DNA from: a virus
IMG/VR virus record: IMGVR_UViG_3300046457_000100
Coordinates: 1 to 27,979 of that record
Reading direction: 5' to 3' (one strand)
Length of the DNA: 27,979 bases
Positions within the stretch are counted from its first letter, which is position 1. The number at the start of each line of letters is the position of its first letter. Shown here piece by piece: positions 704 to 27,665 of the stretch. The position numbers were made by a program, and so were the translations under genes. The notes below the pieces were generated by a model, which was given only the letters and a program-made list of their open reading frames with translations, was not told where the DNA came from and made no database searches.

Positions 704-721
704 GTTTTTATTTGCGAAGGA

Positions 722-766
722 ACCAAGGAAGGAAGATTCCAAGTGAACTTCCTTCCTTGGTCTTTT
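722..766 (+). terminator. Hairpin terminator between lysis-side genes and portal
   Basis: Two perfect 14-base arms, 722-735 (ACCAAGGAAGGAAG) and 748-761, enclose a 12-base loop and are followed by CTTTTG. The left arm overlaps a copy of the dispersed motif (GAACCAAGGAA, 720-730), and the right arm carries a near copy. The T tract is short, so termination may be partial. The gap 704-788 holds nothing else except the portal ribosome binding site. Confidence 0.7.
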
Positions 767-788
767 GTGGCAACGGGGAATACCGCCA

Positions 789-2990
789 ATGAAGATCGAA
801 ACTCCGGATCAGGTTTTGCCTGGGCCGCAAGTACCTGCAAAGAAGCTGACCAGCTGGAAGAACGAGCCGACTCTCGAGATCCTGAAAGGTGACCTCGAAG
901 CGGCCAAACCGTCCCACGATGCTCAGGTCGCCAAGATCAACAAGTGGGTCGAGCTGCTCGACGTGAAGGGCCACGCCGCTCCCAAGAAGATCAAGGGACG
1001 CTCGTCGGTCCAGCCCAAGCTGATTCGTCGCCAGGCTGAATGGCGATACGCTGCACTGTCCGAGCCTTTCCTTGGCTCAAACAAGCTGTTCAAAATTACG
1101 CCGGCCAACTGGGGCAGCACCAAAGCGGCCGCCCAGAACGAGCTCGTCTTGAACTGGCAGTTCCGCACCAAGATGAACCGGATCAAGTTCATCGACGACT
1201 ACGTGCGCTGCACGGTCGATGAAGGCACGTCTGTCGTTCGACTCGGCTGGAAACGGGTCACCAAGAAGCTCAAGCAGCAGGTGCCCCGCTTTGCTCACTA
1301 CGAAGCTGAGACACCGGAGCACGTCGCAGCCCTGAGTCAGGCTCACCAGATGAGCCAGGAAAACCCGGATCAATACGCTCAGCAGGTTCCTCCCGAGATG
1401 CAGTCTGCTGTCTCCCACTATCAGGAGACAGGCCAGATGACCTACGCCGTGAAAGACGGTGTGGAGACGGTGACGACCGAGCAGCTGATGGAGAACCGGC
1501 CGACGGCCGAAGTGTTCGACATCCGCAACTTCTACCTGGACCCGAGCTGCAACGGTGACACCGACAAGGCCATGTTCGCGGTCGTCTCGTTCGAGACGAA
1601 CAAGGCCGAACTCCAGAAGGAAGGTGACCGGTACAAGAATCTGGACGCCGTGAACTGGGAAGGTGCGACAACGGTGGTCGAGCCGAACCATGCCACCCAG
1701 ACGCCGAACGACTTCAACTTCAAGGATGCCACCCGCAAAAAGGTGGTGGCCTACGAATACTGGGGTCTGTATGACGTGGCAGGTGACGGCGTGCTGGTGC
1801 CCATTGTGGCTACCTGGATCGCCAACACCATGATCCGGATGGAACTCAATCCGTTCCCGGACCAGAAGATCCCGTTCGTCGTGGTGCCGTATCTGCCGAT
1901 CAAACGCTCGGCCTACGGTGAGCCGGATGCGGAGATGCTCGAAGACAACCAGAAGATTCTGGGTGCAGTGACCCGAGGCATGATCGATTTGTTGGGCCGC
2001 TCGGCCAATGGCCAGCAGGGTTTCGCCAAGGGCATGCTAGATCCGGTCAACCGTCGGCGCTACGAGAACGGGCAGGACTATGAGTTCAACCCGAACATGC
2101 CGATCCAGAACGGACTGATCGAGCACAAGTATCCGGAGCTGCCGCAGTCCGCTCTCACCATGGTTCAGTACATGAACCAGGATGCAGAAGCCCTCACCGG
2201 GGTGAAGTCCTTCGGCGGTGGGCTGTCCGGAGATTCCTACGGAGATGTGGCCACCGGCATCAAGGGTGCGCTCGACGCAGCTTCCAAGCGTGAGATGGCC
2301 ATTCTCCGCCGACTCGCCAAGGGCATGTCCCAGATTGGCGACAAGATCGTGGCCATGAATGGCGCCTTCATGTCGGAACAAGAGACGATCCAGGTCACGC
2401 AGGAAGAGTTCGTTACGGTCAATCGTGATGAACTGATCGGCAACTTCGATCTGATCGTAGACATCTCGACCGCTGAGGTGGACAACCAGCAGTCTCAGGA
2501 TCTGGCGTTCATGTTGCAGACGATCGGACCCAAGGGTGACTGGAGTTTCACCGCACTCATCCTGGCGGAGATCTGCCGGTTGAAGCGGATGCCCGAACTC
2601 GCTCACAAGATCGAGAACTTCCAACCGCAGCCGGACCCGGTCCAACAACAGTTGCAGCAGCTCCAGCTCAAGAAAGAGCAGTCCGAGATCGACAAGAACG
2701 AGGCTCAGGCCCAGCTGTACCAGGCGCAAGCCAAGGCAGCAGCGAGCCAAGGGGATCTCAACAACCTCAACTATGTCGAGCAAGAGACGGGCACCAAGCA
2801 CGCTCGGGACATGGAGAAGCAGCAAGGACAGGCCGAAGGCAACCAGCATCTGGCAGTCACCAATGCGCTCCTCAAACCGAGGAAGCAGGCCAATGGTGGG
2901 GAGTCGAAGCCGGATGTGGCAGCAGCTGTCGGCTACAACGCTATCTCCAGGGCACAAAGCGGTGTACCAGCTGGACAAGTACCGGGGTAA
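789..2990 (+). CDS. Portal protein (N4 gp59-like)
   Basis: This is the portal, the dodecameric ring at one capsid vertex through which DNA is packaged and ejected. I chose ATG 789 (733 aa) because GGGGA lies 8 bases upstream; an in-frame TTG at 765 would run into the terminator hairpin and is unlikely. The N-terminal part has the conserved GRSSVQPKLIRRQAEWRY segment followed by SEPFLGSNKLF, and DDYVRCTVDEGTSVVRLGW, typical of N4-type portals. From about residue 613 the protein becomes Gln/Ala/Lys-rich coiled coil (QQQLQQLQLKKEQ onward), as expected for a portal barrel inside the capsid. The length is close to the N4 portal (about 760 aa). It is first in the virion gene run portal / small protein / scaffold / capsid. 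Confidence 0.9.
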   Translation: MKIETPDQVLPGPQVPAKKLTSWKNEPTLEILKGDLEAAKPSHDAQVAKINKWVELLDVKGHAAPKKIKGRSSVQPKLIRRQAEWRYAALSEPFLGSNKLFKITPANWGSTKAAAQNELVLNWQFRTKMNRIKFIDDYVRCTVDEGTSVVRLGWKRVTKKLKQQVPRFAHYEAETPEHVAALSQAHQMSQENPDQYAQQVPPEMQSAVSHYQETGQMTYAVKDGVETVTTEQLMENRPTAEVFDIRNFYLDPSCNGDTDKAMFAVVSFETNKAELQKEGDRYKNLDAVNWEGATTVVEPNHATQTPNDFNFKDATRKKVVAYEYWGLYDVAGDGVLVPIVATWIANTMIRMELNPFPDQKIPFVVVPYLPIKRSAYGEPDAEMLEDNQKILGAVTRGMIDLLGRSANGQQGFAKGMLDPVNRRRYENGQDYEFNPNMPIQNGLIEHKYPELPQSALTMVQYMNQDAEALTGVKSFGGGLSGDSYGDVATGIKGALDAASKREMAILRRLAKGMSQIGDKIVAMNGAFMSEQETIQVTQEEFVTVNRDELIGNFDLIVDISTAEVDNQQSQDLAFMLQTIGPKGDWSFTALILAEICRLKRMPELAHKIENFQPQPDPVQQQLQQLQLKKEQSEIDKNEAQAQLYQAQAKAAASQGDLNNLNYVEQETGTKHARDMEKQQGQAEGNQHLAVTNALLKPRKQANGGESKPDVAAAVGYNAISRAQSGVPAGQVPG

Positions 2991-3014
2991 ACTCCTACAA
3001 TCCTGATGTTATGT

Positions 3015-3042
3015 TTGGGGACGCACAGACTGTGCTCCCCAA
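3015..3042. other. Strong hairpin between portal and next gene
   Basis: In the 109-base gap after the portal, TTGGGGA (3015-3021) pairs with TCCCCAA (3036-3042). Inside this, GCACA (3023-3027) pairs with TGTGC (3031-3035) around a three-base GAC loop, with C3022 bulged. No T tract follows, so this is not a standard intrinsic terminator. It may be an RNA processing or stabilising element. A near copy of the dispersed motif (TTCTCTGGCTC, 3054-3064) lies just downstream. Confidence 0.55.
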
Positions 3043-3076
3043 TAACTTCGGGCTTCTCTGGCTCAAAACCTCAACG

Positions 3077-3091: not shown

Positions 3092-3099
3092 TCAAATCC

Positions 3100-3459: not shown

Positions 3460-3461
3460 TC

Positions 3462-4721
3462 ATGCCGGACATCTCAGCGGACCAAACCAATCCGCTGGGT
3501 ATGTCGGATGAGGACTTCCTGAAGCAGCTTCCCCCCGGTGATGCACCGGTGGTCGAGGCGGTTGAGGAAGTCCCCACCGACACGCCCAGCACCGAAACCA
3601 AAGTCGAACCGACTTCAACTGAAGTTGACGACGAGTCAAATGTTGCTTCTACGCAAGAAGCCTCTAGTAAACCAGAGGTGAATGGTGGTAATGTTCCGAC
3701 CAATGTAGTTGGACAAGAAAGCAAGAAGGACGAAGCAACTGCAAGTGATCCCACAGCGAAGCCGGCAGGCGACGCCAAAGACACCCAGGGCAAGGAAGCG
3801 CAGTCGGAAACTACCGACGCCACCAAGCCAGCTGCCCAGACTGCTGCTGTCGACTACGAAGCGTTTTACAAGCAGGTGATGACGCCCTTCAAGGCAAACG
3901 GCAAACAGATCGAACTCCGTTCTATGGACGAAGCGATCCAGCTGATGCAGATGGGCGCCAACTACACCCGCAAGATGCAGGACATGGCTCCGCATCGAAA
4001 GACACTGCTGATGTTGGAAAATGCAAAGCTGCTGGACCCGGATCGTTTGTCGCTCCTCATCGATGTGAACAACGGCGATCCCAAGGCAATCCAGAAGCTG
4101 CTGAAGGACAAGGGAGTAGATCCCATGTCCATCGACACCAGCGAAGAATCAAACTACCTTGGTGGAAATCACAAGGTCAGTGATGAAGAAGCGAATTTCC
4201 GCTCCGCTCTCGACGAACTCAGTTCGCACGATACCGGCAAAGCGACGCTTCAGACCATCAACTCGACGTGGGATCAGGCCAGTAAGGATGTGCTGTGGAA
4301 AGAGCCACAGGTGATGTCAGCGATTCATTCGCAGCGTGAGAACGGTATCTACGACCGCATCTCCACTGAAGTGAACCGTCAACGGATCCTTGGCAAAGTT
4401 CCAGCTGATCTGCCGTTCATTCAGGCCTATAAGGTTGTGGGTGATGCGATGCAGGCGGCAGGCGCATTCAATGACCTGGTCAAGGCCAGTCCCAAAGAAA
4501 CGCCTGCCTCCTCTGGCTCAAGCGAAGCAGCACTAGCTGCTGCCGCTACCAAAACGCCAGTAGCCACTCGTGTCGTCACTCCCAAGTCGGCCGTTACGAA
4601 CTCGGATCAAGCAAGTGCCGCTGCGGCAACGCGGAGCACACCCCGAGAAGTCAAGGCACTCGTCAATCCCCTGGCTATGTCAGATGACGAGTTCTTGAAG
4701 CAGTTCGAAAACCGGCTTTGA
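3462..4721 (+). CDS. Probable capsid scaffolding protein (N4 gp57 position)
   Basis: This 419-residue acidic protein directly precedes the major capsid gene, the usual place for a scaffold. Residues about 25-125 are disordered, rich in Glu, Thr, Ser, Pro and Lys. The middle (about 126-345) is helical, and about 346-395 is an Ala/Ser/Thr-rich linker. An almost identical motif, NPLxMSDxxFLKQ, appears at residues 10-22 and again at 402-414, near both ends. ATG 3462 has AAGGAG upstream. The DNA for the acidic linker (about 3610-3730) is visibly poorer in GC than its neighbours. No sequence signature proves scaffold function; the call rests on position, acidity and architecture. Confidence 0.75.
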   Translation: MPDISADQTNPLGMSDEDFLKQLPPGDAPVVEAVEEVPTDTPSTETKVEPTSTEVDDESNVASTQEASSKPEVNGGNVPTNVVGQESKKDEATASDPTAKPAGDAKDTQGKEAQSETTDATKPAAQTAAVDYEAFYKQVMTPFKANGKQIELRSMDEAIQLMQMGANYTRKMQDMAPHRKTLLMLENAKLLDPDRLSLLIDVNNGDPKAIQKLLKDKGVDPMSIDTSEESNYLGGNHKVSDEEANFRSALDELSSHDTGKATLQTINSTWDQASKDVLWKEPQVMSAIHSQRENGIYDRISTEVNRQRILGKVPADLPFIQAYKVVGDAMQAAGAFNDLVKASPKETPASSGSSEAALAAAATKTPVATRVVTPKSAVTNSDQASAAAATRSTPREVKALVNPLAMSDDEFLKQFENRL

Positions 4722-5976: not shown

Positions 5977-6020
5977 CCAAGTGGAAAGGAGATTTCTCCC
6001 CGGAGTCTCCTTTCCCTTGG
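5977..6020. terminator. Long hairpin after capsid gene
   Basis: CCAAG (5977-5981) and GGAAAGGAGA (5983-5992) pair with TCTCCTTTCC (6006-6015) and CTTGG (6016-6020), a 15-bp stem with only T5982 unpaired. The loop can itself refold as GGAGA/TCTCC. The right arm contains a full copy of the dispersed motif (6012-6023), and the left arm a degenerate inverse one. A CT-rich run follows rather than a T tract, so it may attenuate or stabilise the capsid transcript rather than fully stop it. Confidence 0.55.
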
Positions 6021-6053
6021 TTCCTCGAATCTCTCTCTCTGTGAGACGACATC

Positions 6054-6728: not shown

Positions 6729-6747
6729 GAACCAGGGAAAAGACAAC

Positions 6748-15800: not shown

Positions 15801-18800
15801 CGAACCATCTTGCTGCGGCCTACCCCGAACTGAACGTTGATCATCTGGAGCACACTCCTCTGGATTCTCGGCTTGCCGAGGGTACGGTGAAAGATGTGGT
15901 GCAGGGCTTTAAGGACGGCACCCGCTCAGTCAAGTCTGAGCCCTCTGTAACCCAGAACCAAGAAGCGATACAAAAGGTTACGGAAGCAAAGGATGCAGCA
16001 AAAGAAACCGTTGCGCCAGTCGAATCGGCAAACAAGGCCGAGCCTGCGGCCAAGGAAGAGAAAGCACCTGCGACGGGTCCGCTGACTGAAAAGCAGAAGG
16101 CCCAGGCTCGTGAGGAAGCGCGCAAGGCACCGGCGGCCAAGCCGACCGCTGAGGACCGTGCGATGTCGCGGGAAGATGCGCTCCGCGAGATCGGCCGTCT
16201 GTCGGATGAAGCCTTCAATGACAACCATCCCGGCATGCCTCAGCAGAGCACGTCCGAAGGCAAGTTCGGGGCAAGTGACGGCAAGCTCAACCTGGATGAC
16301 AAGGGCAATGTCGTCCTGCACCGTGTCGCCAACAGCGAAGATCACCTGAACAAGGGTGGCGTCGAAGCACATGGCCAGGAGCTGCTGGACACCTCCATGT
16401 CTGACGGCGGCGGCAAAGGTCTGCCGACCTCGGCTACGTCGAACTGGGGTGAGAAAGCCTATGGTGATCGCAACGTGGTCGGCACCTACACGATCCCGCT
16501 GCACGAACTGTTCGATGCGATTCGCCGTGGTGATGCTGTGCTCGGCAATCCGGCCGAAGGTGAGCTCGTTCTGAATCCGGCATTCGCTGAGCGATACCTG
16601 AGCGAGATGAAGTTCCGGGACGAGGCGGCTGAAGCGGCCAACAAGGCCGGTGCGATCACTGTCGATCTGTCTAACGACAACCAGGGAGCCAAGGAAGAGA
16701 AGGCTGCTCCTGTTGAGGAAAAGGTTTCGACACAAACCAAGGAAACTTCTAAGCAAGAAACCAAGTCGGAGCCAGTGAAAGAAGCTCCGAAGCAAGATCC
16801 TCTCGATCGTTTGCTGCCGAAGTCGGCTTCCGATGGTGACTTGGTTCAGCGCTTCGCTGCTCTCTCCCAACTGGACACTCGCACACCGGCGCAACAAGCG
16901 CAGATGGACTCGGTGAAGAAAGAACTGCACAGCCGTCAGATCGAAGCGGTGTCCTCGGACGATCCGAAGACGGGCCTGGCCGCAGTGTTCCCTTCCCTGG
17001 TTCAGCCGGTGGATGGTGGCAACCAGTTCACGAAAGCATTCCGTGTCGCCAAGCCTGACTCCCAGGGTAACCCGCCGTCAAACATCATCCTGCATGAGCA
17101 ACCGCTGCGTGGCATTGCCGATGCAGTGAAGCAGAGCATCCGTGTGATGCCGGCCTCGACGAGCAAGGATGTCTACGCTGGCTACAAGGGACTGTTCGAG
17201 CAGGCCAATGATATTGCTCGCAGCATGCGTGCTCAGCTCGATGACTTCCTGACCAAGAAGAATGTCGGTCAGCGTTTCCGTGATGGGGAGCAGGCTCATC
17301 GTTGGCTCGATGGCAAGGTGCTCAACCTGACTGAAGATGTCAACGGCAAGCATCGCTACAACGAGCAGCTCCTGCAAAGCACAGCACTCGCGGCTATCAG
17401 CTGGTATCTCAGCTCTGGCCAAGCGGGCGGAGTGTATGACGAACAGGACGCAGCCAAGGCACTCGGTGTGCCGGTTCTGTCGATCGACGACACCTTGATG
17501 GAGAACCTCAAGGGCAGCAGCTCGACCATTGAGATGCTCGACTCACTGGCTGCCAAGATCCAGCAGTACTGGGGTGTGCGTGCAGATCCGACTCAACCGA
17601 TCGGCCTGACCGAAGGGATTCCCCTGTCGATGGCCGCTGAAGTGATGCGTGCGATGAAAGAGCAGGGCATGCTGTCGTCGCAGAACTTCTGGATCGACAC
17701 CTCTGAATTCGGTGGTGTGGTTGATGCTCCGACCAAGGAGATGATCAAGGCCGGTACGGTCAAGGAGATCCAACGAGTCACTGTCGTCAAGTTGCCGGAA
17801 GAAGAAGGCTCACTCGGTGAAGCCATTCGTCGCTATCCGGATCTGATCGAGCAGGCAGTGTTGAATGAACCGACACCGACCTACTACTTCAACGATCAAC
17901 GTCCGAATGTCGCTCGCACGCAGATGCGCAATGAGTACGTGCAGAACACGAAGGATCAGCTGTCGGCTCTGAAGAACGAGACGGACACGCCGCACTATCT
18001 GAACCAGACGATGGCGAATCTGTATCTCGACATGGGTCGTGATGTGGCGCTGCGTTGGTTCGGTGCAGGTGATCTGAGTGATCGTGTGCTGAACGTCAAC
18101 CATGCCGCTTCGCTCAAAGGTCAGAACATGACCACGGGCCAAGCCTACGATGCGTTCCTGAACCTGCACTCGGCACTGGAAGGTGAAGCGGCTACGTCGG
18201 GTGTGGACATCACCGACATCCCGAACCACTACGGCTACAACATGAGCCGGGTGGTTCGTATGCAGATGCTCGGCAAGTACACGCCGCAAAGCACGAAGTT
18301 CATCCGTGAGACGCTCTTGCCGGGACGGGCTACGCTTGACCTGACCGATGCCAAGGGAATGCAGGCATTCAATCTGGGACTGGGCCAGGCACTCGGGATC
18401 AAGGTCCACAACCTCTACTACGAGGACATCACCAAGAAGCTCGACACGTTGCTGAATGGAAGTCTTGCCCCTGCGGTGGATCATCTTCAATCCTGGCTCA
18501 AGGGTGAAGACCTCGACCCGAGCGAGATGGAGAAGGCGTTCAACAATGCCGAGATGGAGATTTCTCCTCTGGCTCTGCATGCACTCACCGAGTACGCACG
18601 CTTCCAGAATGCCACCGATGAAGAGCGCAGCAAGTTCACCACGACCAAGTACCTCGAAGCCGATGGTATGACAAATGGTCCGATCAACGCCATGGCGTTG
18701 CTCTCGACCGGCCCCTTCACGGCTGACTGGGTAGGCAACATGCGCCGGGGTGGTCTGGTGATCGGTGGTGACGAGACGAACACGTCGTCACAGATCCGCC

Positions 18801-21800
18801 AATCGGTGGATGGTGGGGCTGACCTGTATCAGGTAGCCACCGACAAGCTGCGTGAGAAGCTCGGGGATCTTCAGAAGCTCCTGAACAGCCGTGGACAGCA
18901 GGACGTTAAGAACCAGATGAAGCACGTCATCGGTCTGATGGACATGTTCTTGCCGGACCTGAAGATGACGGATGACGGTCTGGAGATTGGCCGGGGTGTG
19001 GCCAAGAATCCGCTGACCATCACCATCTACGGTTCGGGTGCAACCGGCATTGCCGGCAAGCTCGTTCGCACGATGACCGGCGAGATCTACCAACGCATGA
19101 GCACGGCTGCTCAGCTGATGGCTGATGCAGAGCGTGCCGGCAAAGAGATCTCGGCTGCCGAAGCGATGTTCCCGAATGATCCGGAAGCTGATGCCAAGTG
19201 GAAGCGCTATCAGGAGCACATCAACGCACTGACGGATGCAGTTGCTGTCTACAGCAAGGACAAGGAATCTCACTTCCTGCTCAAGTCACCGGTTCCGGAG
19301 AACAAGACGAGCGGGTTCCAGGACTACACCTTCAGCCCGGAAGAGCTGAAGAACATGATCACGAACGTGCGATTCATGTTCGTCGATCCGATGCGCTCGG
19401 CAATCTCGGATACGATCGGCAAGGAGTTGGAAGACAACACCACGATGATCCGGATTGCAACGCAGGCTCAGTCGATCCTGATGTCACACATCTACGTGCA
19501 GAAGGTTGAAGCTGCGCTGGAACAGAAGGCCAAGACCGATCCCTTCTTCAAGAAGGATGAGTTCCTGTCGAAGAACGAACTCAAGGCAGTGATGGATAGT
19601 CTCGCTGCTTACCATCCGATGGTGCAGACAGAAGACCAATCCTTCTTCATTGCTGGTTCACAGAACAGTGATGTGAAGACCGCGGACTTCGGACGGGCAC
19701 TCAATGGTGAGTTCCGCCATGCAGGCTTTGTCTCCGGCCCGGCCAACTCTGGGGTGGCAGGTATCCCGTTCCTGAACATCGGGATGGGTGACGGCAAGAT
19801 GATGCAGCTCTTGGCCAACGATCCCCGTGTGCAACGCACGCTGAAGATCTTCGACGGTATGAACATGCCGCTCGATGCGATCACGGAACAGAGCCAGGCA
19901 GCCAATGAGGCAGTCCTCGAATCGTGGCAGGGCAATCCCCTCCAGGCTGTGCATGACTCCTTCTCTCCTTTCCTGGCTCAGATTGCCAAGGAAGGCGGGC
20001 TCGAGAATCTGCCGAAGGCAGTGCATGATGCTCTGGTCAAGTCGCTCTTCGGTCTGGATGCAGAAGGCGAGCACTACTCGGCCAAGGAAGTGCAGTCGAA
20101 GATGAACTTCTTCGAAAGCGTTCTGCGTGATCGTGCTCTGGAAGTGACGGCACGCCACAACGTATTGAGCCAGGTGAACCTGTCTGTCGACCAGATGAGC
20201 TCGGCCGGTGCTCCTCATGTGGTGAAGGGCAAGATGGCGATCAACCCCAACGCCACGAATGAAGAGAAGGCTCTGATCCTGACGAGCCTGTACAACGACG
20301 AGCTCGCCAAGCTGAAGAAGGAAGCAGGCCTCGCACCGGACATTGCTCCGGAGACGCAGCTGGTTGAAGATCCGAAGTCGGTTGAGAAGGCGATTGCCTC
20401 GGACAAGATCAACGAACAGATCAACCAGTTCGGCCGGATCAATAAGGCAACCGGTGCTCGTGTTCTTTCGACCACGGCTACCAACAAGCTGACGATGAAG
20501 GGCTTGCCCAACATCCCGGAACATCAGAAAGTCATTCTTCAGGAGGTTCGCAAGTCGCTCGCTGCCAAGGGTTACCAGATCGTGACGGGCACTCGTGAGC
20601 AGCTGACCAAGTTCGCTCTCGCCAAGGGCGACACGAACGCTACGTTCGGACCCAAGGATAACGGTGTGACTCTTCCTGGCTCGCAACGGATCTACTTGAT
20701 GAATCCGACGAGTGAGGTTCTCACGCACGAGCTGATCCACGCAGCCACGTATGAAGCAGTGCTGGCTCACTACCAAGGCAATTCGACGCCGGTGGTGGCA
20801 GATGCGGTCAAGTCGATCGAAGGTCTGATGAAACAGTTCATGGGTATGAATGTGTCGAAGGAAGACTTCGTCACGCAACAAGCTCATGCTGATGCACTGG
20901 CCGCCATCAATGCCTACAGCGAGCACACGGCAGAAGGCAAGGCTTCCCGTGCGAACGAGTTCATGGCTTGGGCACTGGCCAACCAAGAATTGGCTGATCT
21001 CGGCAAGAAGACCAACGCCCTCGTCCAACTGGCGAAGGATGTCTTCCAGGCAATCAAGCAACTGGTGTACGGTCGGAAGCAAGTTCCCCTTCCTACACCT
21101 GGCTCAGATCTGTTCAGCAACCTGCTGTTCCATACGTCGGTTGTGATGCGCTCGCAGCCGTCGGTGGTTGAGACGATGAAGAACACGGCACTCATGCACA
21201 GCTCGGATTATGGTCAGAGCGAGCGTCTTAGTGATGTGAACCGTACCTTCGGCCGGATGCTGGAGAACTTCGAGAAGCAACCGGATCGTCCGAACCAGCC
21301 GACCACGTTCAAGGCACAGGTGAACTTTGCCACGGTGCAGGCTGCTGGACTGGCGATCAAGGTGCAGGGTCAGGGCTTCCCGATGACCATGCAGGAACAC
21401 AGCACGTTCTCGCTGATCGTCGCTGCACTGGGTACGCAGATGCACCTGGACCCGAACTCCTTGGCCAAGGCTCAGGAGTTGTACCAGCATGTCACGAAGA
21501 ACCTCACGGTCGAACACTTCATGGCCAAGCCGAATGATCAAGGTCCGGATGCAGATCCGAACGATCGTTATCAGGCACAACGTCGCTACAACACCATCCT
21601 CGGTGAGTTCGGTTCGACCAAGGATAAGAGCGGCCGCTCTTCGCTGCTGCCGGTGTTCCTCGGGCTGGCGATGACCAATGACGGCTTCCGGGCAGTGCTC
21701 TCGAAGATGGATCTGCCGGAGGGTGTGAAGTCCAACGCCAACTCCAAGGTGGATGCGTATGCCGAGAACATGGCTCAGGGACTCATGGACCGCCTCGGAG

Positions 21801-24589
21801 ATCGAGCAGCTGGCCTGACAGGCAAAGGTGCTGAGCAGAACGTGCAGGCCTCGCTCGACGCTCTCATGGGCCATGTGATGCAGGTGTCGGTGGAACGTGA
21901 GATGTTCATGGAACAGACGGCGGCCGGCAATGTCGCAGATTCGATCAACGCTGCGATGGTGCAGGGCGTCGAGCGTCTCTCAGGAGCAGCGATCGACAAG
22001 CTGGAAAAGATCATCAACGATCCGAAGACTTCGCCGTGGGCGAAGAACGCAGCCAAATACGCCCAGCTCTCGGCCATGATGGCCACCGAGAAAAACGGCA
22101 ACATCGTGGCTGAGTCGGTGGTGTCGCACATGAACAAGATGAATGCGTGGCAACCGCTACACGACACGGTGTACGACTTCATCGGCCGTACCGAGCAGAA
22201 CGCACCGGTCTACGACATGATGAAGCTGGTTCGCTCACAGGTGTCGCAGGATCGTCAGAACTACCGCGAGCACGTACCGGGCATCATTGCTGATCACTTC
22301 AGCCGTCCGCTGGAAGATCACGAGTGGGCAACGTTGCACCGTGCGATGGGCAAGACCGACATCGCAGCACTCCGCGGCACGTTGAAGAACTCCGAGATTC
22401 ATGAACTCCTCGGTGACGCCAAGCAGCTCGACTCGGCCATCAACGCACTCGAAGGTCAGCTGAAGGCCTACGACAAGAAGAACTGGAGCATGTACCAGCA
22501 GAAGTCTCAGCAGCTCGCCAACTATATGATGAATGGCGAAGTGGGGACCAACCTGCTCCGCAATGCCACGGCCATCTCTCATCTGTTCGGTGAGCGCAAG
22601 GCTTCGGGTGTCGGACATAGCCAAGAGCTGGTCAAGATGATCGACCACCTGACGACGCTCTACGCACTGGAGCATCTGAGCCCGACGGAGAAGGCTACGC
22701 TTTCTTCCTTGGCTCTGACCGAAGGTGACGGTATCGGCTTCACGACTGACTATCTGGTTGGTCAGCGAGCTGAAGAGGAGCGCAAGATGGAAGGCTCCAG
22801 CCGTGCTCGTCTGAATGGCTTCAAGGGATTCATCCCCGAAGTCAGCCAGTCCGGTGTGCAACTGAGGGTGGCTGATGACAAGGAGTATCAGCAACTCACC
22901 GAGCAGTCGTTCGAACGTGTGGCTGACTACAAGGGCAGCACCGCAGACGGAACCAAGGGAAGAATGGGGTATTACTTCTCAGGGACTTCCGCACAGCAGA
23001 CCTTCCTGCAGGGGATCTTCCAGAACGTGCGGCAGACGGCGAATGGTGTGGACCTGATGACGGGTTACAACAACTCGACGATGACGGCTGGCCGGATCTC
23101 GGATCGCTCGGAAGTCGCTCGGATCCTCCTGAACCTGGCTCTGGGTGAAGGTGGTAACGAGCCGCTGATGCCTGTCTTCGATGCGAAGGGGCAGGTGGTG
23201 GCATTCGAGCGCTCGATCGATCCGGAGCAGCTCGCACGCGTGCAGACGGACCAGAATCTGGCCAAGCGGATCGGTGCATGGCGTGGTCGACAAGTCGAAG
23301 AAGCCAAGGCGCAGCAGTTCAACAATGCGCTGATCGATGCTCTGCACGATCGTTACAACAACGACATGAAAAAGAGCCAGTCGAAGCAGGCCGAGTACGT
23401 CAACCTGTTCAGCCATGCCTACCTGAAGTCGGACCCGGTGATTGCTGATGCAGTGAAGCTCTGGACGCCGGAGACACGGAACCGTATTGAGTCTGTGTTC
23501 GGCAAGGATGCGTTCTGGGTGCCGAAGGACATGCTGCATGACACGTCGGGTTACCGCCAAGCATCGGTGGGTGATGTGTTCACCGGCAACAGCCGTCTCT
23601 CCACTGAGACGCAGGAATACTTGCGCCGCACGATGATCGGCATGTTTGGCAACAAGGCCTACCAGTACTTCACCAATGGCGAGAAGATCTTGCAGAACTT
23701 CATCGGGGATGCCAAGACACTGATCGTTGTGAAGAGTGTGGTGGTGCCCATGATCAACGCAGCAGGTAATGTGTTGCAGCTGGTGAGCCGTGGTGTGCCG
23801 ATCAAGCACATCGGTGTGGGGATGCCGAAGAAGATCGCAGAGACGAACTCCTACGTGAATCAACGTGTCGCACAGATCAAACTCGAAACTGAGATGCGAG
23901 GTGTGACTGATGATCCGGTGGCCACGCGTAATCTGACGACGCAGTGGCAGTCGATCGAGGACAGCATCAAGCGGTTGTCGATCTACCCGCTGATCCAGGC
24001 AGGAGAGTTCACTGCGATCTCGGATGCGACGCAAGTCGGATCGGACGATGTGGATCTGGCTTCGGGCAAGCTGCAATCCTTCATGGAGAGCCAGGTAGAT
24101 AAGTTGCCGAAGTCGTTGCAAACCGCTGGACGGTACGCCCTTGTGACCAAGGACACCGCACTGTTCAAGGGATTGCAGAAGTCGGTGGAGTACGGTGACT
24201 TCATTGCGAAGGCGCTCTATTTTGATGACCTGGTGAATCGTAAAGGCCTGACAAATGAGCAAGCTCTGGGCAAGGTGACGGAAGAGTTTGTGAACTATGA
24301 CAAGCTGCCGGGTCGTTTCCGGGGATACCTGGAATCGATCGGCTTGCTCTGGTTCTACAACTTCAAGATCCGGGCCACGAAGACGGCCATGTCGATGATG
24401 CGCAACAACCCGCTGCATACGCTGCTGGCTGCGTCTTTGCCGATGCCGAGCATGTTCGCCTCGGTCGGTACGCCGCTCTCGGACAACTTCATCTCGAAGC
24501 TGTTCAGTGGGCAGATCGGTTACAGCTGGGGGCTTGGGCAGATCCTGCACGCTCCGCAGATGAACCCGTGGATTAACATCTTCGGGTAA
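12851..24589 (+). CDS. Giant virion RNA polymerase polyprotein (N4 gp50-like vRNAP)
   Basis: This 3912-residue protein is a virion-packaged, T7-like single-subunit RNA polymerase, ejected into the host to transcribe early genes. Polymerase motifs occur in order: TLLPGR at 1821-1826 (probable T/DxxGR), DGMTNG with D1938 (motif A), Rx3Kx7YG with R2048, K2052 and Y2060-G2061 (motif B), and HDSF with D2369 (motif C). The polymerase core is therefore about 1320-2450. Other parts: a helical N-terminus (1-1028); a Lys/Glu/Ala/Pro linker (about 1029-1107); a module (about 1110-1270) with R1158, TSATS at 1193-1197 and E1236-G-E1238, perhaps ADP-ribosyltransferase-like; a second linker (about 1275-1317); a metallopeptidase-like region with HELIH at 2626-2630 and E2703; and a helical C-terminus. 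N4 vRNAP is about 3500 aa, so this one is longer. ATG 12851 follows AGGGA. Confidence 0.93.
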   Translation: MSDTLNALLAAAASNAATTPVTPGAPTPMDATSDRIQKQLSFLAPTKQDSVTEKMAGLTGDSYHGLAVSADRNAQAGMASASPIERDLRTMNPMNFLMKYGDDGQKMLDRYVSAQRDVMTENGQSRDGGQILGDSINSVVTGLGSTIGTLGAWGAGAIDPKLGANISKSIADAAQNMQERKSAVAQDHAIQGADLYNLQKRDTAAQYKNEIKAGPGPIEQSLNALDKAMGYKPQSADMMATLRREGRNALNEVGNDVSDPTQFGEGAANAVGSLLATGPMAKVIGLGGKAISSLVPVSTKASIAASAAIDAATGTPSAARLLAAAAEKTGEHLPGALAIGAMEGGGAYQQTAADVMNMSPEELAKTSPAYQKLVAGGMLPEDARATLAGQAGSAAAPRQALAGMLTGAFVAPFEAHPFKFGGGRTALQNMGKEALEEGVQNATGQMSQNKAEADLGIDPAKQLFDSVGQQFGQGALYGSAAAGHVSAPGVVLGTSGRAVAGAASLAANGVKAGVQAGVNAVPSALEAVRQGLSKAKDVAGQYADELTPNMPGMPKVSMPGAPDVGGVVKNAASMAQQGLSAIKPYVSKVTDYFANKGDAVLKKNEQSSPVSDDVIAQAANEVSQQSAQTEALKQSVADTPDLPDEAKQKATEYLDQAQKITQLSPEQVSAMHPAAQAVVGDTTNRMSAIQSMQSFVSSTKNSEADRLAVAAQLQAEKADIGRFANSTPAALDGLPADHGVREYADNVATFAKGVDQTPGATRADRATADLLEKASSILKPLTEERIGTPEGQADAKTIANLAAVAPAQLDPNSVGVALKHATAAGLSEDQKRSLKLASGLLEKAQAWSDARKANGDAALSPKDLVTEKVTTGDTSNPYKQSALQHAQGIAAAYRAGDLDSARVKLLDLQKFANSQQNKLAAINTHLVTGNSDESKSVHYLRLSSDADRSFSLSDKGVGVKPASEGSVRFARRVAAEAKFLTDLSNHLAAAYPELNVDHLEHTPLDSRLAEGTVKDVVQGFKDGTRSVKSEPSVTQNQEAIQKVTEAKDAAKETVAPVESANKAEPAAKEEKAPATGPLTEKQKAQAREEARKAPAAKPTAEDRAMSREDALREIGRLSDEAFNDNHPGMPQQSTSEGKFGASDGKLNLDDKGNVVLHRVANSEDHLNKGGVEAHGQELLDTSMSDGGGKGLPTSATSNWGEKAYGDRNVVGTYTIPLHELFDAIRRGDAVLGNPAEGELVLNPAFAERYLSEMKFRDEAAEAANKAGAITVDLSNDNQGAKEEKAAPVEEKVSTQTKETSKQETKSEPVKEAPKQDPLDRLLPKSASDGDLVQRFAALSQLDTRTPAQQAQMDSVKKELHSRQIEAVSSDDPKTGLAAVFPSLVQPVDGGNQFTKAFRVAKPDSQGNPPSNIILHEQPLRGIADAVKQSIRVMPASTSKDVYAGYKGLFEQANDIARSMRAQLDDFLTKKNVGQRFRDGEQAHRWLDGKVLNLTEDVNGKHRYNEQLLQSTALAAISWYLSSGQAGGVYDEQDAAKALGVPVLSIDDTLMENLKGSSSTIEMLDSLAAKIQQYWGVRADPTQPIGLTEGIPLSMAAEVMRAMKEQGMLSSQNFWIDTSEFGGVVDAPTKEMIKAGTVKEIQRVTVVKLPEEEGSLGEAIRRYPDLIEQAVLNEPTPTYYFNDQRPNVARTQMRNEYVQNTKDQLSALKNETDTPHYLNQTMANLYLDMGRDVALRWFGAGDLSDRVLNVNHAASLKGQNMTTGQAYDAFLNLHSALEGEAATSGVDITDIPNHYGYNMSRVVRMQMLGKYTPQSTKFIRETLLPGRATLDLTDAKGMQAFNLGLGQALGIKVHNLYYEDITKKLDTLLNGSLAPAVDHLQSWLKGEDLDPSEMEKAFNNAEMEISPLALHALTEYARFQNATDEERSKFTTTKYLEADGMTNGPINAMALLSTGPFTADWVGNMRRGGLVIGGDETNTSSQIRQSVDGGADLYQVATDKLREKLGDLQKLLNSRGQQDVKNQMKHVIGLMDMFLPDLKMTDDGLEIGRGVAKNPLTITIYGSGATGIAGKLVRTMTGEIYQRMSTAAQLMADAERAGKEISAAEAMFPNDPEADAKWKRYQEHINALTDAVAVYSKDKESHFLLKSPVPENKTSGFQDYTFSPEELKNMITNVRFMFVDPMRSAISDTIGKELEDNTTMIRIATQAQSILMSHIYVQKVEAALEQKAKTDPFFKKDEFLSKNELKAVMDSLAAYHPMVQTEDQSFFIAGSQNSDVKTADFGRALNGEFRHAGFVSGPANSGVAGIPFLNIGMGDGKMMQLLANDPRVQRTLKIFDGMNMPLDAITEQSQAANEAVLESWQGNPLQAVHDSFSPFLAQIAKEGGLENLPKAVHDALVKSLFGLDAEGEHYSAKEVQSKMNFFESVLRDRALEVTARHNVLSQVNLSVDQMSSAGAPHVVKGKMAINPNATNEEKALILTSLYNDELAKLKKEAGLAPDIAPETQLVEDPKSVEKAIASDKINEQINQFGRINKATGARVLSTTATNKLTMKGLPNIPEHQKVILQEVRKSLAAKGYQIVTGTREQLTKFALAKGDTNATFGPKDNGVTLPGSQRIYLMNPTSEVLTHELIHAATYEAVLAHYQGNSTPVVADAVKSIEGLMKQFMGMNVSKEDFVTQQAHADALAAINAYSEHTAEGKASRANEFMAWALANQELADLGKKTNALVQLAKDVFQAIKQLVYGRKQVPLPTPGSDLFSNLLFHTSVVMRSQPSVVETMKNTALMHSSDYGQSERLSDVNRTFGRMLENFEKQPDRPNQPTTFKAQVNFATVQAAGLAIKVQGQGFPMTMQEHSTFSLIVAALGTQMHLDPNSLAKAQELYQHVTKNLTVEHFMAKPNDQGPDADPNDRYQAQRRYNTILGEFGSTKDKSGRSSLLPVFLGLAMTNDGFRAVLSKMDLPEGVKSNANSKVDAYAENMAQGLMDRLGDRAAGLTGKGAEQNVQASLDALMGHVMQVSVEREMFMEQTAAGNVADSINAAMVQGVERLSGAAIDKLEKIINDPKTSPWAKNAAKYAQLSAMMATEKNGNIVAESVVSHMNKMNAWQPLHDTVYDFIGRTEQNAPVYDMMKLVRSQVSQDRQNYREHVPGIIADHFSRPLEDHEWATLHRAMGKTDIAALRGTLKNSEIHELLGDAKQLDSAINALEGQLKAYDKKNWSMYQQKSQQLANYMMNGEVGTNLLRNATAISHLFGERKASGVGHSQELVKMIDHLTTLYALEHLSPTEKATLSSLALTEGDGIGFTTDYLVGQRAEEERKMEGSSRARLNGFKGFIPEVSQSGVQLRVADDKEYQQLTEQSFERVADYKGSTADGTKGRMGYYFSGTSAQQTFLQGIFQNVRQTANGVDLMTGYNNSTMTAGRISDRSEVARILLNLALGEGGNEPLMPVFDAKGQVVAFERSIDPEQLARVQTDQNLAKRIGAWRGRQVEEAKAQQFNNALIDALHDRYNNDMKKSQSKQAEYVNLFSHAYLKSDPVIADAVKLWTPETRNRIESVFGKDAFWVPKDMLHDTSGYRQASVGDVFTGNSRLSTETQEYLRRTMIGMFGNKAYQYFTNGEKILQNFIGDAKTLIVVKSVVVPMINAAGNVLQLVSRGVPIKHIGVGMPKKIAETNSYVNQRVAQIKLETEMRGVTDDPVATRNLTTQWQSIEDSIKRLSIYPLIQAGEFTAISDATQVGSDDVDLASGKLQSFMESQVDKLPKSLQTAGRYALVTKDTALFKGLQKSVEYGDFIAKALYFDDLVNRKGLTNEQALGKVTEEFVNYDKLPGRFRGYLESIGLLWFYNFKIRATKTAMSMMRNNPLHTLLAASLPMPSMFASVGTPLSDNFISKLFSGQIGYSWGLGQILHAPQMNPWINIFG

Positions 24590-24626: not shown

Positions 24627-24628
24627 GA

Positions 24629-24719: not shown

Positions 24720-24728
24720 AAACTGGGT

Positions 24729-24761: not shown

Positions 24762-24807
24762 GGTACTTCACTCTCTCAACTCTCTCAGGGTCTAGAGAAC
24801 CTACATC

Positions 24808-25017: not shown

Positions 25018-25472
25018 TCAGCGTTGCTCACGCGCTTCAGCCCGCCGAACAGGCTCTTCTTCGGCGCTTCAACCGGGGGAGCTTCGTTGTCGCCTTGCAC
25101 TGCTTCCGGCTCAGCCGAACCTTCCGTGTCACCAGTTTGCTCCCCAGCCTGGGTCGAGGTATTCGTCTCGTCCGAAGTCGGGGTCAGTTCGTTTCCCTGG
25201 CTCACGACTTCGGCTGCCTTCGGCGCCGGCTCTTCCCGCTTGAGCACCGGAGCGGCCGGAGCAGCAGTTTCAACCTTCGGTGCCGGGGCCGGCGCAGCTG
25301 CCTTCAGCTTGGCCGGCGTGATGTCGATGTCCGCCGTGAAGCCCACATCACCACGGGTCGAGCGGATGTCGATGTCGATCTGCATGCCTTCTTTGATCGT
25401 GATCTGCTCGCTGATGTAGTTGCGGATTGCTGCTTCGATTTCCGTCTGAACGATCTGGATTTTCATTTTCAT
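25014..25472 (-). CDS. Unknown protein with N-terminal domain, Pro/Ala linker and KKSLFG tail
   Basis: This is a protein of 152 residues from ATG 25472 (ATGA overlap with the resolvase stop) or 150 residues from the next ATG at 25466. The latter is better placed relative to the AAAGG upstream. Residues 1-55 form a small predicted alpha/beta unit (EIEAAIRNYISEQITIKEG, then IDIDIRS...). Residues about 56-130 are a disordered Ala/Pro/Glu/Thr linker. The C-terminus has APKKSLFGG (KKSLFG at 138-143), nearly the same as the SSB tail encoded two genes upstream. I do not know a family. The shared tail suggests a common partner with the SSB. Confidence 0.7.
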   Translation of the reverse strand: MKMKIQIVQTEIEAAIRNYISEQITIKEGMQIDIDIRSTRGDVGFTADIDITPAKLKAAAPAPAPKVETAAPAAPVLKREEPAPKAAEVVSQGNELTPTSDETNTSTQAGEQTGDTEGSAEPEAVQGDNEAPPVEAPKKSLFGGLKRVSNAE

Positions 25473-26026
25473 ACCTTTGCGAAGAGTCGCATTAAATTCT
25501 GGAACATGGGCGTATTCACGCCTGCATGGATTGCGCCGATGGCGTCGGCTACGTGTTCTGCTTTGGTCGCTGAGACTGCGCCGTTGTGATACGGCCAGTT
25601 GGCATCGGGGTATTGGGCCAAGCCCGCTTCAATCATCTGGTTCTTGGTCGCGTCTTTCTTGCCGGAAAATGCCTTCTTCACTTCAAGTGCGGTCACTTCG
25701 ATCAGGGGGATCCCTTCGGCCATGACTGCACCCAGCACTCCAATACAGAATCCGTAGGACGCCATCGCTCGCGCTGACTGGGATCCAACGGGGACTTCGA
25801 CGAAGATCACTTTCGCCTTGCGGGCAACTGGGAGCACTACCTCCGCCAGTTGCCGGGTGAGGTAGAGATCGCTGGAGTTCTGACGAACCTGCTTGCCTTC
25901 CATGTCCTTGGGACAAACCACGGACAGGTGAGGGTTGCTCAGCTCGCCAGAATCCAGATCCAGTACTGCCTGGGCGATCCCCCAGTTACGCATGGCGGGA
26001 TCGAAGCCGACGACAGGGATCTTCAT
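25469..26026 (-). CDS. RuvC-like Holliday-junction resolvase
   Basis: This 185-residue protein has the RNase H-like RuvC pattern: GFDPAMRNWG with D9 and N14, VIFVEVPVGSQ with E77, and near the C-terminus KAEHVADAIGA with E157, H158 and D161. These are the expected metal-binding acids of a junction-resolving nuclease acting on branched DNA before packaging. The length is close to that of bacterial RuvC (about 170 aa). It begins six bases after the SSB stop and overlaps the next gene by four bases, so it belongs to the same operon. The family call is good; specificity for Holliday junctions over other branched DNA is inferred. Confidence 0.85.
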   Translation of the reverse strand: MKIPVVGFDPAMRNWGIAQAVLDLDSGELSNPHLSVVCPKDMEGKQVRQNSSDLYLTRQLAEVVLPVARKAKVIFVEVPVGSQSARAMASYGFCIGVLGAVMAEGIPLIEVTALEVKKAFSGKKDATKNQMIEAGLAQYPDANWPYHNGAVSATKAEHVADAIGAIHAGVNTPMFQNLMRLFAKV

Positions 26027-26032
26027 GGCGCT

Positions 26033-26803
26033 TTACTTCTTGCCGAAGAGCGACTTCTTCGGAGCTGCATCGCCACCTGCTTGGGGCGGAGCACCGGCCT
26101 TCGACGATTGCGGAGCGCCACCTGCGCCGCCTTGGCCGTTGCCGCCCTTGTACTTGCGGCCATCACGGGTCTTGCCCTTGTTGAGCTCGACCCAGCCTTC
26201 CCAGAATGCGCCGACATCGGCACCGGCCTTCGCTTCGACGATGGTCAGCTTGTGCTCCGGGTGGAACACCTTGTCGGTGGCGTTCTCTTCGCGCTCTTCA
26301 GCCGTCGGCTGATAGTCGCCGTTGGCATCCTTCTCGCTCTTGTTGACGAGCTTCTTCAGCACGCCGAGAGCCACTTCCTGGCCGATCGTTTCGACCAGCA
26401 TCGGCATGGCCTTGTTGACCTGCTTGCCGTCTTCCCAGATCTGAACGATCTTGTCTTCCGTGTCCTGCTCGGACAGGCCCTTGCCGGTGGCAATTTGGCA
26501 GATGTCATCGACGATCGTGAAGCCCGGCAACGGTGCCTTCTTGCCCGTCGGCTTGCCGGTCTTGTCCTTCGCCGCGAAGAAGTTTTCGCCGTTCTTGTTG
26601 GTGATCCAGAACACCTCGCGGTATTCCTTGCCCGCTTGCTCACCGAGGAAGGTGATCGACGTTGCGCCGCCGTTCGACTTGCCGGCGAACATCGCCTTGA
26701 TCTTGAACGTGTAGATGTCCGTGTCGAGCGGACGGAATCCGCCCAGACGATCGGTTGCTTCTTCGAGGCCGTTGGTGCTGAGATTGCCGAACAGAGTGCT
26801 CAT
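26033..26803 (-). CDS. Single-stranded DNA-binding protein (N4 gp45-like)
   Basis: This 256-residue protein matches the SSB of N4-like phages in length (N4 about 265 aa), position and pattern: YTFKIKAMFAGKSNGGATSI, the segment EVFWITNKNGENFF, PLPGFTIVDDICQIATGKGL, then EREENATDKVFHPEHKLTIV. From about residue 205 it is a Gly/Ala/Pro/Lys linker ending in APKKSLFGKK (KKSLFG at 249-254). In N4, the SSB coats single-stranded DNA in replication and also activates host RNA polymerase at late promoters, through its C-terminus as I recall. ATG 26803 has only a weak upstream AAAG. It lies between the ATPase and resolvase genes. Confidence 0.85.
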   Translation of the reverse strand: MSTLFGNLSTNGLEEATDRLGGFRPLDTDIYTFKIKAMFAGKSNGGATSITFLGEQAGKEYREVFWITNKNGENFFAAKDKTGKPTGKKAPLPGFTIVDDICQIATGKGLSEQDTEDKIVQIWEDGKQVNKAMPMLVETIGQEVALGVLKKLVNKSEKDANGDYQPTAEEREENATDKVFHPEHKLTIVEAKAGADVGAFWEGWVELNKGKTRDGRKYKGGNGQGGAGGAPQSSKAGAPPQAGGDAAPKKSLFGKK

Positions 26804-26847
26804 AGTGTTTTCTTTGAAAGGTGGTTTAGTTTGAGTTCGTGAATGGT

Positions 26848-27609
26848 TTATTTGCCGTAGAACTCGTTCAGGTGATCCAGCAGTTTCTGTGCGTCGTTAT
26901 CGATGAACGTCTCTGCCTTGTCGAACATGCCCATCGGGCTGCGCACCCGGTAGCCTGTCGTTTGCTTCGTGGGCCTCGTCTGGAAGACGTGCTTGTAGCC
27001 CAGTTCCTTCTCTTCCTCGGTGATCTCCAGCATCTTGGAGCCGTACTTTTCCAGCTCCTTGACTGGCACCTTCTTGGCGACAACCACGGTCGAGAAGTAC
27101 GCCTCGATACCGTTGTTCTTCAGCGATCCCTTGACCGGTACTTTGGTCTTGATCGTGGCTGATGCCTCGTCCAGCTCGTCCAGCAAGTGGGCGATGATGA
27201 TCACCGGCTTGCCGAACTTCGTGACCTTCTCCTGCATGAGCTTCTTGAAGAACTGCGCATACTGGCCCCATGCCTGCATGGTGTTTGCGCTGTTGAGTAC
27301 GTACTGCGACTCGAACATGTCCATCAGGAACGTGGATGAGTCGATGATGATTCCGTCGACCTGGTCCTTGTTCTCGATGCAGTCATCGAAGTAAGCCCAC
27401 ACTTCGTAGGGGTCAGTGACCCGCACGTTGTTGAAGCTGTTCCTGAAGGGGAGGCGCTTACCTGCCTCGCAATTCAGATACACCCATCTCTCCTGGTTCC
27501 GGATCTCACGCAGCGATGCGCTCTTTCCTTCCCCGGAGAAACCTGCGATCAGCATCAGCTGATCATTGACTTCACCGATTTCGATGTCGTCTTCCATTAC
27601 TTCGCTCAT
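26848..27609 (-). CDS. RecA-fold ATPase, Sak4-like (N4 gp44 position)
   Basis: This is a 253-residue P-loop ATPase. I chose ATG 27609 because GGAGAG precedes it at good spacing; an in-frame TTG at 27645 is unlikely. Walker A is GFSGEGKS (23-30), and Walker B is VDGIIIDSSTF with D90. FGKPVIIIAHLLDELDE follows, as expected for the next core strand. The shape fits AAA_24/Sak4-type recombination mediators, which phages use with an SSB for strand annealing or exchange; the SSB gene lies 44 bases downstream. The C-terminal third (RPTKQTTGYRVRSPMGMFDK) looks like a substrate region of the same family. A different DNA-repair ATPase role remains possible. Confidence 0.8.
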   Translation of the reverse strand: MSEVMEDDIEIGEVNDQLMLIAGFSGEGKSASLREIRNQERWVYLNCEAGKRLPFRNSFNNVRVTDPYEVWAYFDDCIENKDQVDGIIIDSSTFLMDMFESQYVLNSANTMQAWGQYAQFFKKLMQEKVTKFGKPVIIIAHLLDELDEASATIKTKVPVKGSLKNNGIEAYFSTVVVAKKVPVKELEKYGSKMLEITEEEKELGYKHVFQTRPTKQTTGYRVRSPMGMFDKAETFIDNDAQKLLDHLNEFYGK

Positions 27610-27633
27610 GTTCTCTCCAGAGGCTGATCCCAA

Positions 27634-27648
27634 TCCTTGAACCAAGGA
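27634..27648. other. Small hairpin with dispersed motif upstream of ATPase gene
   Basis: TCCTTG (27634-27639) pairs perfectly with CAAGGA (27643-27648) around the three-base loop AAC. It overlaps a dispersed-motif copy (27639-27649) and lies 25 bases upstream of the ATPase start on the - strand. Its short stem and three-base loop resemble N4 vRNAP promoter hairpins, but nothing else of such a promoter can be shown here. Confidence 0.35.
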
Positions 27649-27665
27649 AAGGAATCAGCGGGTGA

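Follow-up and report, generated by a model that had tools for sequence, protein, structure and literature searches.

The motif TTCC(Y0-2)TGGYTC (Y, pyrimidine) is scattered through a 27,979-base IMG/VR record of an N4-like phage (the whole record, hereafter the window), and is one version of a wider element made up, in this phage, of a run of about 10 pyrimidines, the word TGGYT and one clade-specific base. The evidence gives good support to the view that this element is a family-wide site acting at the DNA level, which tracks the gp43-type helicase-primase of these phages and is directional in the clade of the window; there, as seen in the window and in the 78.5 kb IMG/VR contig G002, it takes the form (Y)~10-TGGYT-C. 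We propose, with a probability of roughly 0.65, that a helicase-primase of the N4 gp43 type, encoded by the phage itself, recognizes the motif on its template and starts primers there, a priming site being the most economical mechanism, if an unproven one. A first-pass annotation had correctly seen the motif in this one genome, and had missed its sharing by relatives, its directionality and its variation with the type of helicase-primase.

The gene content of the window is N4-like, including genes for the portal protein (765-2990), the major capsid protein (4738-5970), Sak4, a single-strand DNA-binding protein (SSB) and a RuvC-like resolvase. Exact copies of TTCC(Y0-2)TGGYTC number 17, with 10 on the plus strand and 7 on the minus strand, as against a mean of 0.24 (maximum 2) in 200 dinucleotide shuffles and an expectation of 1.15 under a fifth-order Markov model. 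This bears out the first-pass count of at least 16 copies on both strands, far above chance, and every position named there (720, 1068, 1352, 6012, 6729, 10749, 11516, 13726, 19970 and 27639) is among the 17. Shuffling of synonymous codons within each gene (n=200) left 3.2 copies on average (standard deviation 1.0), and the maximum of 6 is well short of the observed count, in agreement with the earlier claim that the excess is not a protein-level effect. It should be noted that the genes in this control were the longest open reading frames (ORFs) overlapping by less than 60 bases rather than annotated genes, and that DNA outside the called ORFs stayed unshuffled, so that its motif copies remain in the control. 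Sites with at least six pyrimidines followed by TGGYTC (Y6TGGYTC) occur 24 times in the window, against 0.76 under the Markov model and 4.5 after codon shuffling, and TTCC is therefore a piece of a longer pyrimidine tract. The original definition thus captured a real signal but drew it too narrowly, the common part being TGGYT and one clade-specific base. The motif also recurs in relatives at counts above the codon-preserving control, as exemplified by G002 with 46 copies against 7.8.

All 6-mers and 7-mers were ranked against codon-preserving shuffles in the window and in 20 further N4-like samples, three of which were whole or near-whole records and the others 29-43 kb in length. Three of the phages sampled, D474, SonariX and TEMp, have no family in their records and were counted as N4-like by their genes or a capsid match. 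The fixed core TGGYT lies above the control in 21 of 21 samples, window included (z 5.9-18.3), and the clade-adjusted YTGGYTN does so in 23 of 23 (z 4.7-17.3); given that the clade-specific next base was picked after the k-mer ranking, the unbiased figures are those for the fixed core. In most samples a word containing TGGYT or its flank stands at or near the top of the ranking, for example TGGTTC in N4 (220 against 89 in the control), TTGGTTC in Zuri (111 against 34), TGGCTT in PEV2 (92 against 26), TGGTTT in KPP21 (78 against 29), TGGTTA in Vibrio phage phi50-12 (85 against 29) and TTGGTT in Vibrio phage phi 1 (174 against 73). The enrichment is weak in Acinetobacter phage XC38 (TGGTTT, 72 against 44). 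N4 contains 197 YTGGYTC sites where 79 are expected, and the TGGYT core is common to phages of Agrobacterium, Vibrio, Pseudomonas, Achromobacter and E. coli. A T4-like stretch examined with the same control showed no excess (z 0.9 for TGGYT and 0.3 for YTGGYTC). The related word TGGGTC is more frequent than expected in N4 (loci L033 and L036; 65 against 29.8), mostly antisense to genes; as a variant of the motif it was dropped, since it is not above the control in the window, G002, Zuri, Axy12, HN02, PEV2 or G7C.

In each of the 23 samples the enrichment extends to both strands, at 1.64- to 3.57-fold for the late-gene strand and 1.38- to 3.34-fold for the other, and hence selection acts on DNA rather than RNA. 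The absolute excess is greater on the late-gene strand in all 23, but the fold enrichment is not consistently so, and we therefore draw no fork direction from it. No clear excess was seen in non-coding DNA, which holds 16 of 197 YTGGYTC sites in N4 (14.1 expected), 8 of 163 in Zuri (8.6 expected) and 10 of 81 in G002 (7.0 expected); the 181 of 197 sites inside called ORFs in N4 are likewise about as expected. Taken together, enrichment on both strands and the lack of a clear non-coding excess argue against transcripts and promoters. Two specific candidates fit these data poorly. A promoter of the N4 virion RNA polymerase would be expected upstream of early genes in non-coding DNA, to which the sites are not confined (hairpins were not searched for). 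The packaging signal entertained in the first-pass annotation is unlikely in view of the 197 YTGGYTC sites in N4, and N4, Zuri and G002, divided into 14 bins, have TGGYTC in every bin rather than as a few pac/cos-like sites at the ends. As regards a DNA uptake sequence, which would be enriched in the genome of a competent bacterium, phages of many unrelated hosts share the core.

Individual sites tend to be held in place. Of the 53 YTGGYTC sites of the window, 20 can be aligned with G002, and 11 of these 20 recur there at the same place; the corresponding figure for six control patterns is 15 of 72, and 21.6% of aligned 7-mers are identical. Evenness of spacing was expressed as the fraction of 2000 random placements that were as even or more even than the observed one. 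This fraction is 0.22 and 0.16 on the two strands of N4 (0.73 for both together), 0.65 and 0.14 in Zuri (0.02 together) and, for YTGGYTC, 0.09 and 0.03 in G002 (0.04 together). With the longer Y5TGGYTC in G002 (loci L020-L023) it is 0.37 on one strand, 0 of 2000 on the late-gene strand and 0.01 for both together, the 53 evenly spaced sites of the late-gene strand having a mean gap of 1445 nt and a coefficient of variation of 0.62 against 0.97.

The spelling of the motif changes together with the type of helicase-primase. We surveyed gp43-bearing loci in IMG/VR, each 9 kb or longer, using 54 of 74 with a Zuri-type gene, 54 of 80 with a SonariX-type gene and 13 of 15 with an AD45-type gene. Zuri-type loci are enriched in YTGGYT in 48 of 54 cases and prefer C as the next base in 50 of 54; among SonariX-type loci YTGGYT is enriched in 51 of 54 and T is preferred in 43 of 54; the AD45-type loci show YTGGYT enrichment in none of 13 and CTAGKT enrichment (K, G or T) in 10 of 13. 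On a FastTree phylogeny of gp43 with 110 rows the spelling labels require 13 changes, against 45.4 when shuffled. This tree took 110 of the 121 loci, seven without a full-length gp43 and four without a clear next base being left out, and its AD45-type rows were labelled by group rather than by their own counts. A single search for relatives with the gp43 of PT15 found nothing.

The Alteromonas phages AD45-P4 and R22Y, in which gp43 is diverged, carry a TAGYT-type word in place of the TGGYT enrichment. The AD45-P4 protein has 25% identity to the N4-family profile (hhalign probability 99), and that of R22Y is 38% identical to it. In AD45-P4 CTAGYT occurs 267 times against 135, with CTAGTT as the strongest 6-mer (181 against 69); in R22Y the strongest 6-mer is GTAGTT (114 against 52) and TAGYT occurs 542 times against 362. 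Profile searches over 100,000 of the 100,619 bases of AD45-P4 recovered gp43 (E 3e-33), DNA polymerase (5e-62), terminase and capsid, with weak matches for SSB (1e-5) and RNAP2 (2e-4); no Sak4, gp42 nuclease, gp37 helicase or gp46 resolvase was found there at E 0.05 with small profiles. Pseudoalteromonas phage Y3 has an N4-type capsid protein together with a lambda O-type replication protein (Pfam Phage_rep_O, E 9e-25), and a profile search found no gp43 match in it. Y3 also lacks a dominant TGG motif: YTGGYTC occurs 27 times against 28.9, none of the top eight 6-mers contains TGGYT, and there is a mild excess of YTGGYTT (80 against 54.7). As a separate observation on AD45-P4 (KF005319.1; loci L126 and L128), ACTAG occurs 382 times against 218, so that CTAG, which is usually rare, is strongly over-represented, and C is additionally preferred two bases 5' of CTAGTT (88 against 22).

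Carriers of these genes outside the N4-like phages were sought by tblastn. Among the best 60 of 470 records matched with Zuri gp43 and the best 40 of 471 with Zuri gp42, all are N4-like by size or name apart from the chimera-like SonariX and one weak gp42 match in BK063671. SonariX (PQ898399.1; loci L050 and L125) is a chimera-like genome of 248.7 kb, with T4-like genes (rIIA, motA, asiA) at 20-60 kb and an N4-like module with a gp43 match and a large late gene at 205-245 kb.

The protein that we propose as the reader of the motif is represented in the window by the C-terminal part (103 aa) of a gp43-type helicase-primase at 27666..27977 on the minus strand, which contains a PriCT-1 domain (PF08708, E 4.7e-9). 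This gene runs off the contig, and its end is identical to the end of N4 gp43 at 53 of 96 residues. The full-length N4 protein (L033:27314-29461) was modeled, with an alignment (A1) of 43 homologues and a predicted confidence (pLDDT) of 87. Residues ~10-390 model as an MCM-like helicase (VIA Z 17.7, root-mean-square deviation (rmsd) 4.2, 290 aligned), MCM helicases being listed by the fold search with the full-length model. In Pfam, the N-terminal half matched only DUF3987, below the cut-off. The C-terminal 278 residues, modeled with a pLDDT of 88 and a predicted TM-score of 0.84, have as their best match the archaeo-eukaryotic primase (AEP) domain of the cyanophage S-2L PrimPol (6zp9_A, Z 8.1, rmsd 3.4, 138 aligned), followed by other AEP primases at Z 4-6, and the last helices resemble the DNA-binding domain of ColE2 Rep (Z 6.1; 58 residues aligned, 24% identical) and, at Z ~5, Cre recombinases. 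PriCT_1 is matched in N4 gp43 at E 1e-9, and sequence searches against the PDB gave nothing useful. In the alignment D525 and T548-R551 are invariant and D527 and H552 nearly so; we take D525/D527, T548-R551 and H552 to resemble the AEP motifs. The AEP reading is favored because AEP entries recur and agree with the PriCT_1 match and the conserved residues, and gp43 thus models as an MCM-like helicase joined to an archaeo-eukaryotic primase with a PriCT-1 domain. N4 is reported to need gp43 for its DNA replication (PMC2784036), and PriCT-1 is equated with the helix bundle of the pRN1 enzyme (PMC5862659).

The sequence around the word provides a further feature that would suit a primase. At the 276 TGGYTC sites of the window and G002, the ten positions 5' of the T (-1 to -10) show an excess of pyrimidines (z 2.0-6.3), with no such enrichment beyond -10 or at the first 12 positions on the 3' side. 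Such a 5'-only footprint would be expected if a primer of ~8-11 nt were copied from the 5' side of the word. On this basis the single-stranded DNA (ssDNA) template would read, from 5' to 3', a pyrimidine tract (up to ~10 nt in the window's clade) and then T-GGYT-(C, T or A by clade). Within gp43, GGYT(N) would be bound by the PriCT-1 domain, much as GTG is held by the pRN1 helix bundle domain, while synthesis by the primase domain would begin opposite the T, with the tract as template for a purine-rich primer that the phage DNA polymerase would extend; in an alternative, T7-like register the primer would begin inside the word. With many sites on both strands, forks moving in either direction could start lagging-strand fragments often. 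The binding of gp43 to the motif, the position of the primer start and the benefit to the phage are steps that we infer. As to the broader picture, namely that the phage family writes the template word of its primase genome-wide at a frequency far beyond chance, accompanied in the window's clade by a pyrimidine tract that would yield a purine-rich primer, and that this word has drifted (TGGYT-C, TGGYT-T, TGGYT-A, TAGYT) along with the helicase-primase, so that priming specificity could be read from the genome sequence by itself and phage templates would be favored over host DNA, we consider the chances to be evenly balanced.

Several observations weigh against a priming site, or narrow its reach. 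The pyrimidine polarity is a feature of the clade and not of the family: the tract is shorter in Zuri and Axy12 (~6 nt) and in OLIVR1 (~7 nt), is weak or absent beyond -1 in N4 with G7C, PEV2, SP076, SonariX with CB1, phi50-12 and phi 1, and is not seen around the AD45-P4 motif, while PEV2 and SonariX with CB1 show some preference for purines immediately 3' of the word (z as low as -3.2). Enrichment is similar on both strands, where a single fixed origin would predict a switch, so the proposal has to posit forks travelling both ways; in T7, too, the sites occur on both strands. Among N4, Zuri and G002, even spacing is clear only in G002. With respect to gp43, VIA Z-scores of 6-8 for its C-terminus are middling, and Foldseek alone gave no match below E 0.001 for the C-terminal model. 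The architecture common to all spellings would be T(G/A)GYT, which equates TAGYT with TGGYT by inference, and two loci (L138 and L142) with gp43 genes 54% and 53% identical to that of AD45 have no clear CTAGKT excess, showing in its place a milder one of TAGCT (130 against 86). Moreover, the core replication genes are co-inherited, and the variation in spelling therefore cannot single out gp43 from the DNA polymerase, SSB or virion RNA polymerase. Nor is a weak excess of TGGYT type specific, as T7 has one too (z 4.5, below all the N4-like samples) and Y3 shows z 3.2 for TGGYT and 4.2 for YTGGYTT. In T7, used as a positive control, the primase word (G/T)GGTC is over-represented 1.31- and 1.33-fold on the two strands (z 4.1 and 5.3 against the codon-preserving control), a modest effect: TGGTC ranks 17th and GGGTC 48th of 512 pentamers, and TGGCT, which lies outside the reported site form, ranks third. 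Finally, other pentamers such as CAGCA and CATTG in Zuri are far above the codon control as well. A second set of words (CATTG, CACTG/CAGTG, CATTGG, CACTGG) recurs above the control in the Zuri, PEV2, Axy12, G002 and CB2047B samples, and may reflect codon pairs or belong to the same system.

Among the explanations put forward in the first-pass annotation, recognition by a phage protein is the best, and the alternatives to gp43 as that reader have to be weighed with the same data. It is unlikely that the site serves another phage protein, such as the DNA polymerase, SSB, virion RNA polymerase, terminase or a condensing protein, in place of the primase. Such genes are inherited with gp43, AD45-P4 retains the DNA polymerase and terminase along with the weak SSB and RNAP2 matches, and a role in the replication of N4 DNA is reported for the virion RNA polymerase (PMC2784036). 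However, none of these proteins is an obvious reader of sequence at ~200 dispersed sites, and Y3, which lacks a dominant motif, is said to keep the N4-type DNA polymerase and virion RNA polymerase (PMC11654794), although our profile search of Y3 found no DNA polymerase. Quite unlikely, too, is a phage Chi-like site, at which the gp37 helicase and the gp42 PD-(D/E)XK nuclease would recognize the word while resecting phage ends and pass ssDNA to Sak4, so that phage DNA is protected or recombined. Chi itself likewise has many copies, on both strands and inside genes, N4 gp37 belongs to the SF1-type helicases, gp42 matches PDDEXK_1 at a level under the Pfam cut-off, and genes for Sak4, SSB and a resolvase adjoin that of gp43 in the window. 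Nevertheless, AD45-P4 has an analogous dispersed motif with no gp37, gp42, Sak4 or gp46 match at E 0.05, for which another nuclease or a separate origin of the motif might account, and a one-sided pyrimidine tract is not expected of such a site. SP076, D474 and phi 1, which are annotated with a RusA-like and not a RuvC-like resolvase, keep the motif, and for that reason the RuvC-like resolvase is also disfavored as a reader.

Explanations that dispense with a DNA-binding reader fare worse. An artefact of codon-pair or mutational bias without function is very improbable: codon-pair bias is not kept by the codon shuffles, and CAGCA, CATTG and CAGTG also exceed the control, but the same core appears in phages of all five host groups listed above and not in the T4-like control, both strands are enriched, sites are held in place more often than the control patterns, and the spelling shifts with the type of gp43. 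An RNA-level processing, pausing or translation signal, to which the copies lying between genes (720, 6012 and 27639) could point and which the first-pass annotation had offered, is hardly credible given the enrichment of both strands in every sample and the absence of a clear non-coding excess in N4, Zuri and G002. The priming site of gp43 thus remains the reading that we prefer.

The sites of the window in which a pyrimidine tract precedes the word are distributed along its entire length. Those belonging to the 17 exact copies comprise, with TGGTTC, 720..736 (minus; between the ORFs 341-703 and 765-2990, the latter encoding the portal), 6006..6023 (plus; between the major capsid ORF, which ends at 5970, and ORF 6054-6668), 6729..6743 (minus), 10749..10759 (minus), 13722..13736 (plus), 16988..17003 (plus), 22950..22964 (minus) and 27639..27654 (minus; flanked by the end of the gp43-type gene and the Sak4-like ORF's first ATG), and, with TGGCTC, 1065..1078 (plus), 1352..1363 (minus), 11513..11525 (plus), 12968..12983 (plus), 16686..16703 (minus), 19957..19979 (plus), 20670..20682 (plus), 22700..22715 (plus) and 25192..25203 (plus). 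Further sites with TGGTTC lie at 100..120, 350..362 and 27487..27499 on the plus strand and at 15955..15965 on the minus strand, and those with TGGCTC at 3053..3064, 4507..4519, 8530..8541 and 18561..18575 on the plus strand and at 2744..2755 on the minus strand. Conserved in place in G002 are the sites beginning at 1065, 4507, 6006, 6729, 8530, 25192, 27487 and 27639, as well as the YTGGYTC of that at 100. The neighbors of gp43 in the replication module, all on the minus strand, are a Sak4-like ssDNA annealing protein of the N4 gp44 type (26848..27645; PHROG 124, E 8e-46) and an SSB of the N4 gp45 type (26033..26803; PHROG 743, E 8e-68); the RuvC-like Holliday junction resolvase, disfavored above, lies at 25469..26026 on the same strand (PHROG 159, E 1e-34).

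If the motif is indeed a priming site, it would allow the specificity of primases to be inferred from phage genomes, and would exemplify strong selection of a primase word over the whole length of a genome; the lagging-strand start sites of N4-type phages, their spelling by clade and a candidate reader domain, PriCT-1, would now be named. The literature that we searched, mostly outside subscription journals, yielded no description of N4-type lagging-strand starts, of this motif or of N4 primase sites. Primase recognition sites as such are known; a family-wide, strongly selected word that drifts by clade, with a tract of primer length in one clade, was not found in that literature.

Among known systems, Chi sites are likewise dispersed, over-represented and found inside genes. 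They differ in being read by RecBCD or AddAB, and the analogous motif of AD45-P4 occurs without a detectable gp37/gp42 pair. The words of known primases are mildly over-represented under the codon-preserving control. The T4 gp61 primase is similar in starting primers at a template word, 5'-GTT or 5'-GCT (PMC10359460), but differs in that its words are trinucleotides; in the T4-like stretch GCT is over-represented 1.09-fold (z 6.6) and GTT 1.02-fold (z 2.4), the trinucleotides not being ranked. The sites of T7 gp4, 5'-(G/T)2GTC-3', are comparable as short, dispersed template words with GG and TC. However, gp4 is described as a DnaG-type enzyme with a zinc-binding domain (PMC12839067), and its word is shorter and its enrichment weaker than in the N4-like phages. 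The pRN1 enzyme (ORF904) is a plasmid protein with the word GTG rather than GGYT(N), N4 gp43 has in addition an N-terminal MCM-like helicase, and genome-wide over-representation is not mentioned in the accessible part of the pRN1 study (PMC8076596). The pRN1 enzyme nonetheless resembles the predicted organization of gp43 in its AEP primase with a helix bundle of the PriCT-1 type and, as proposed here, in a short template word with priming 5' of it: in pRN1 the bundle binds GTG in the template, a primer of ~8 nt is made 5' of it, and the standard substrate carries a T-tract 5' of the GTG (PMC8076596). By this analogy, the ~10 pyrimidines 5' of the word in the window's clade would correspond to what an enzyme of the pRN1 type would copy.

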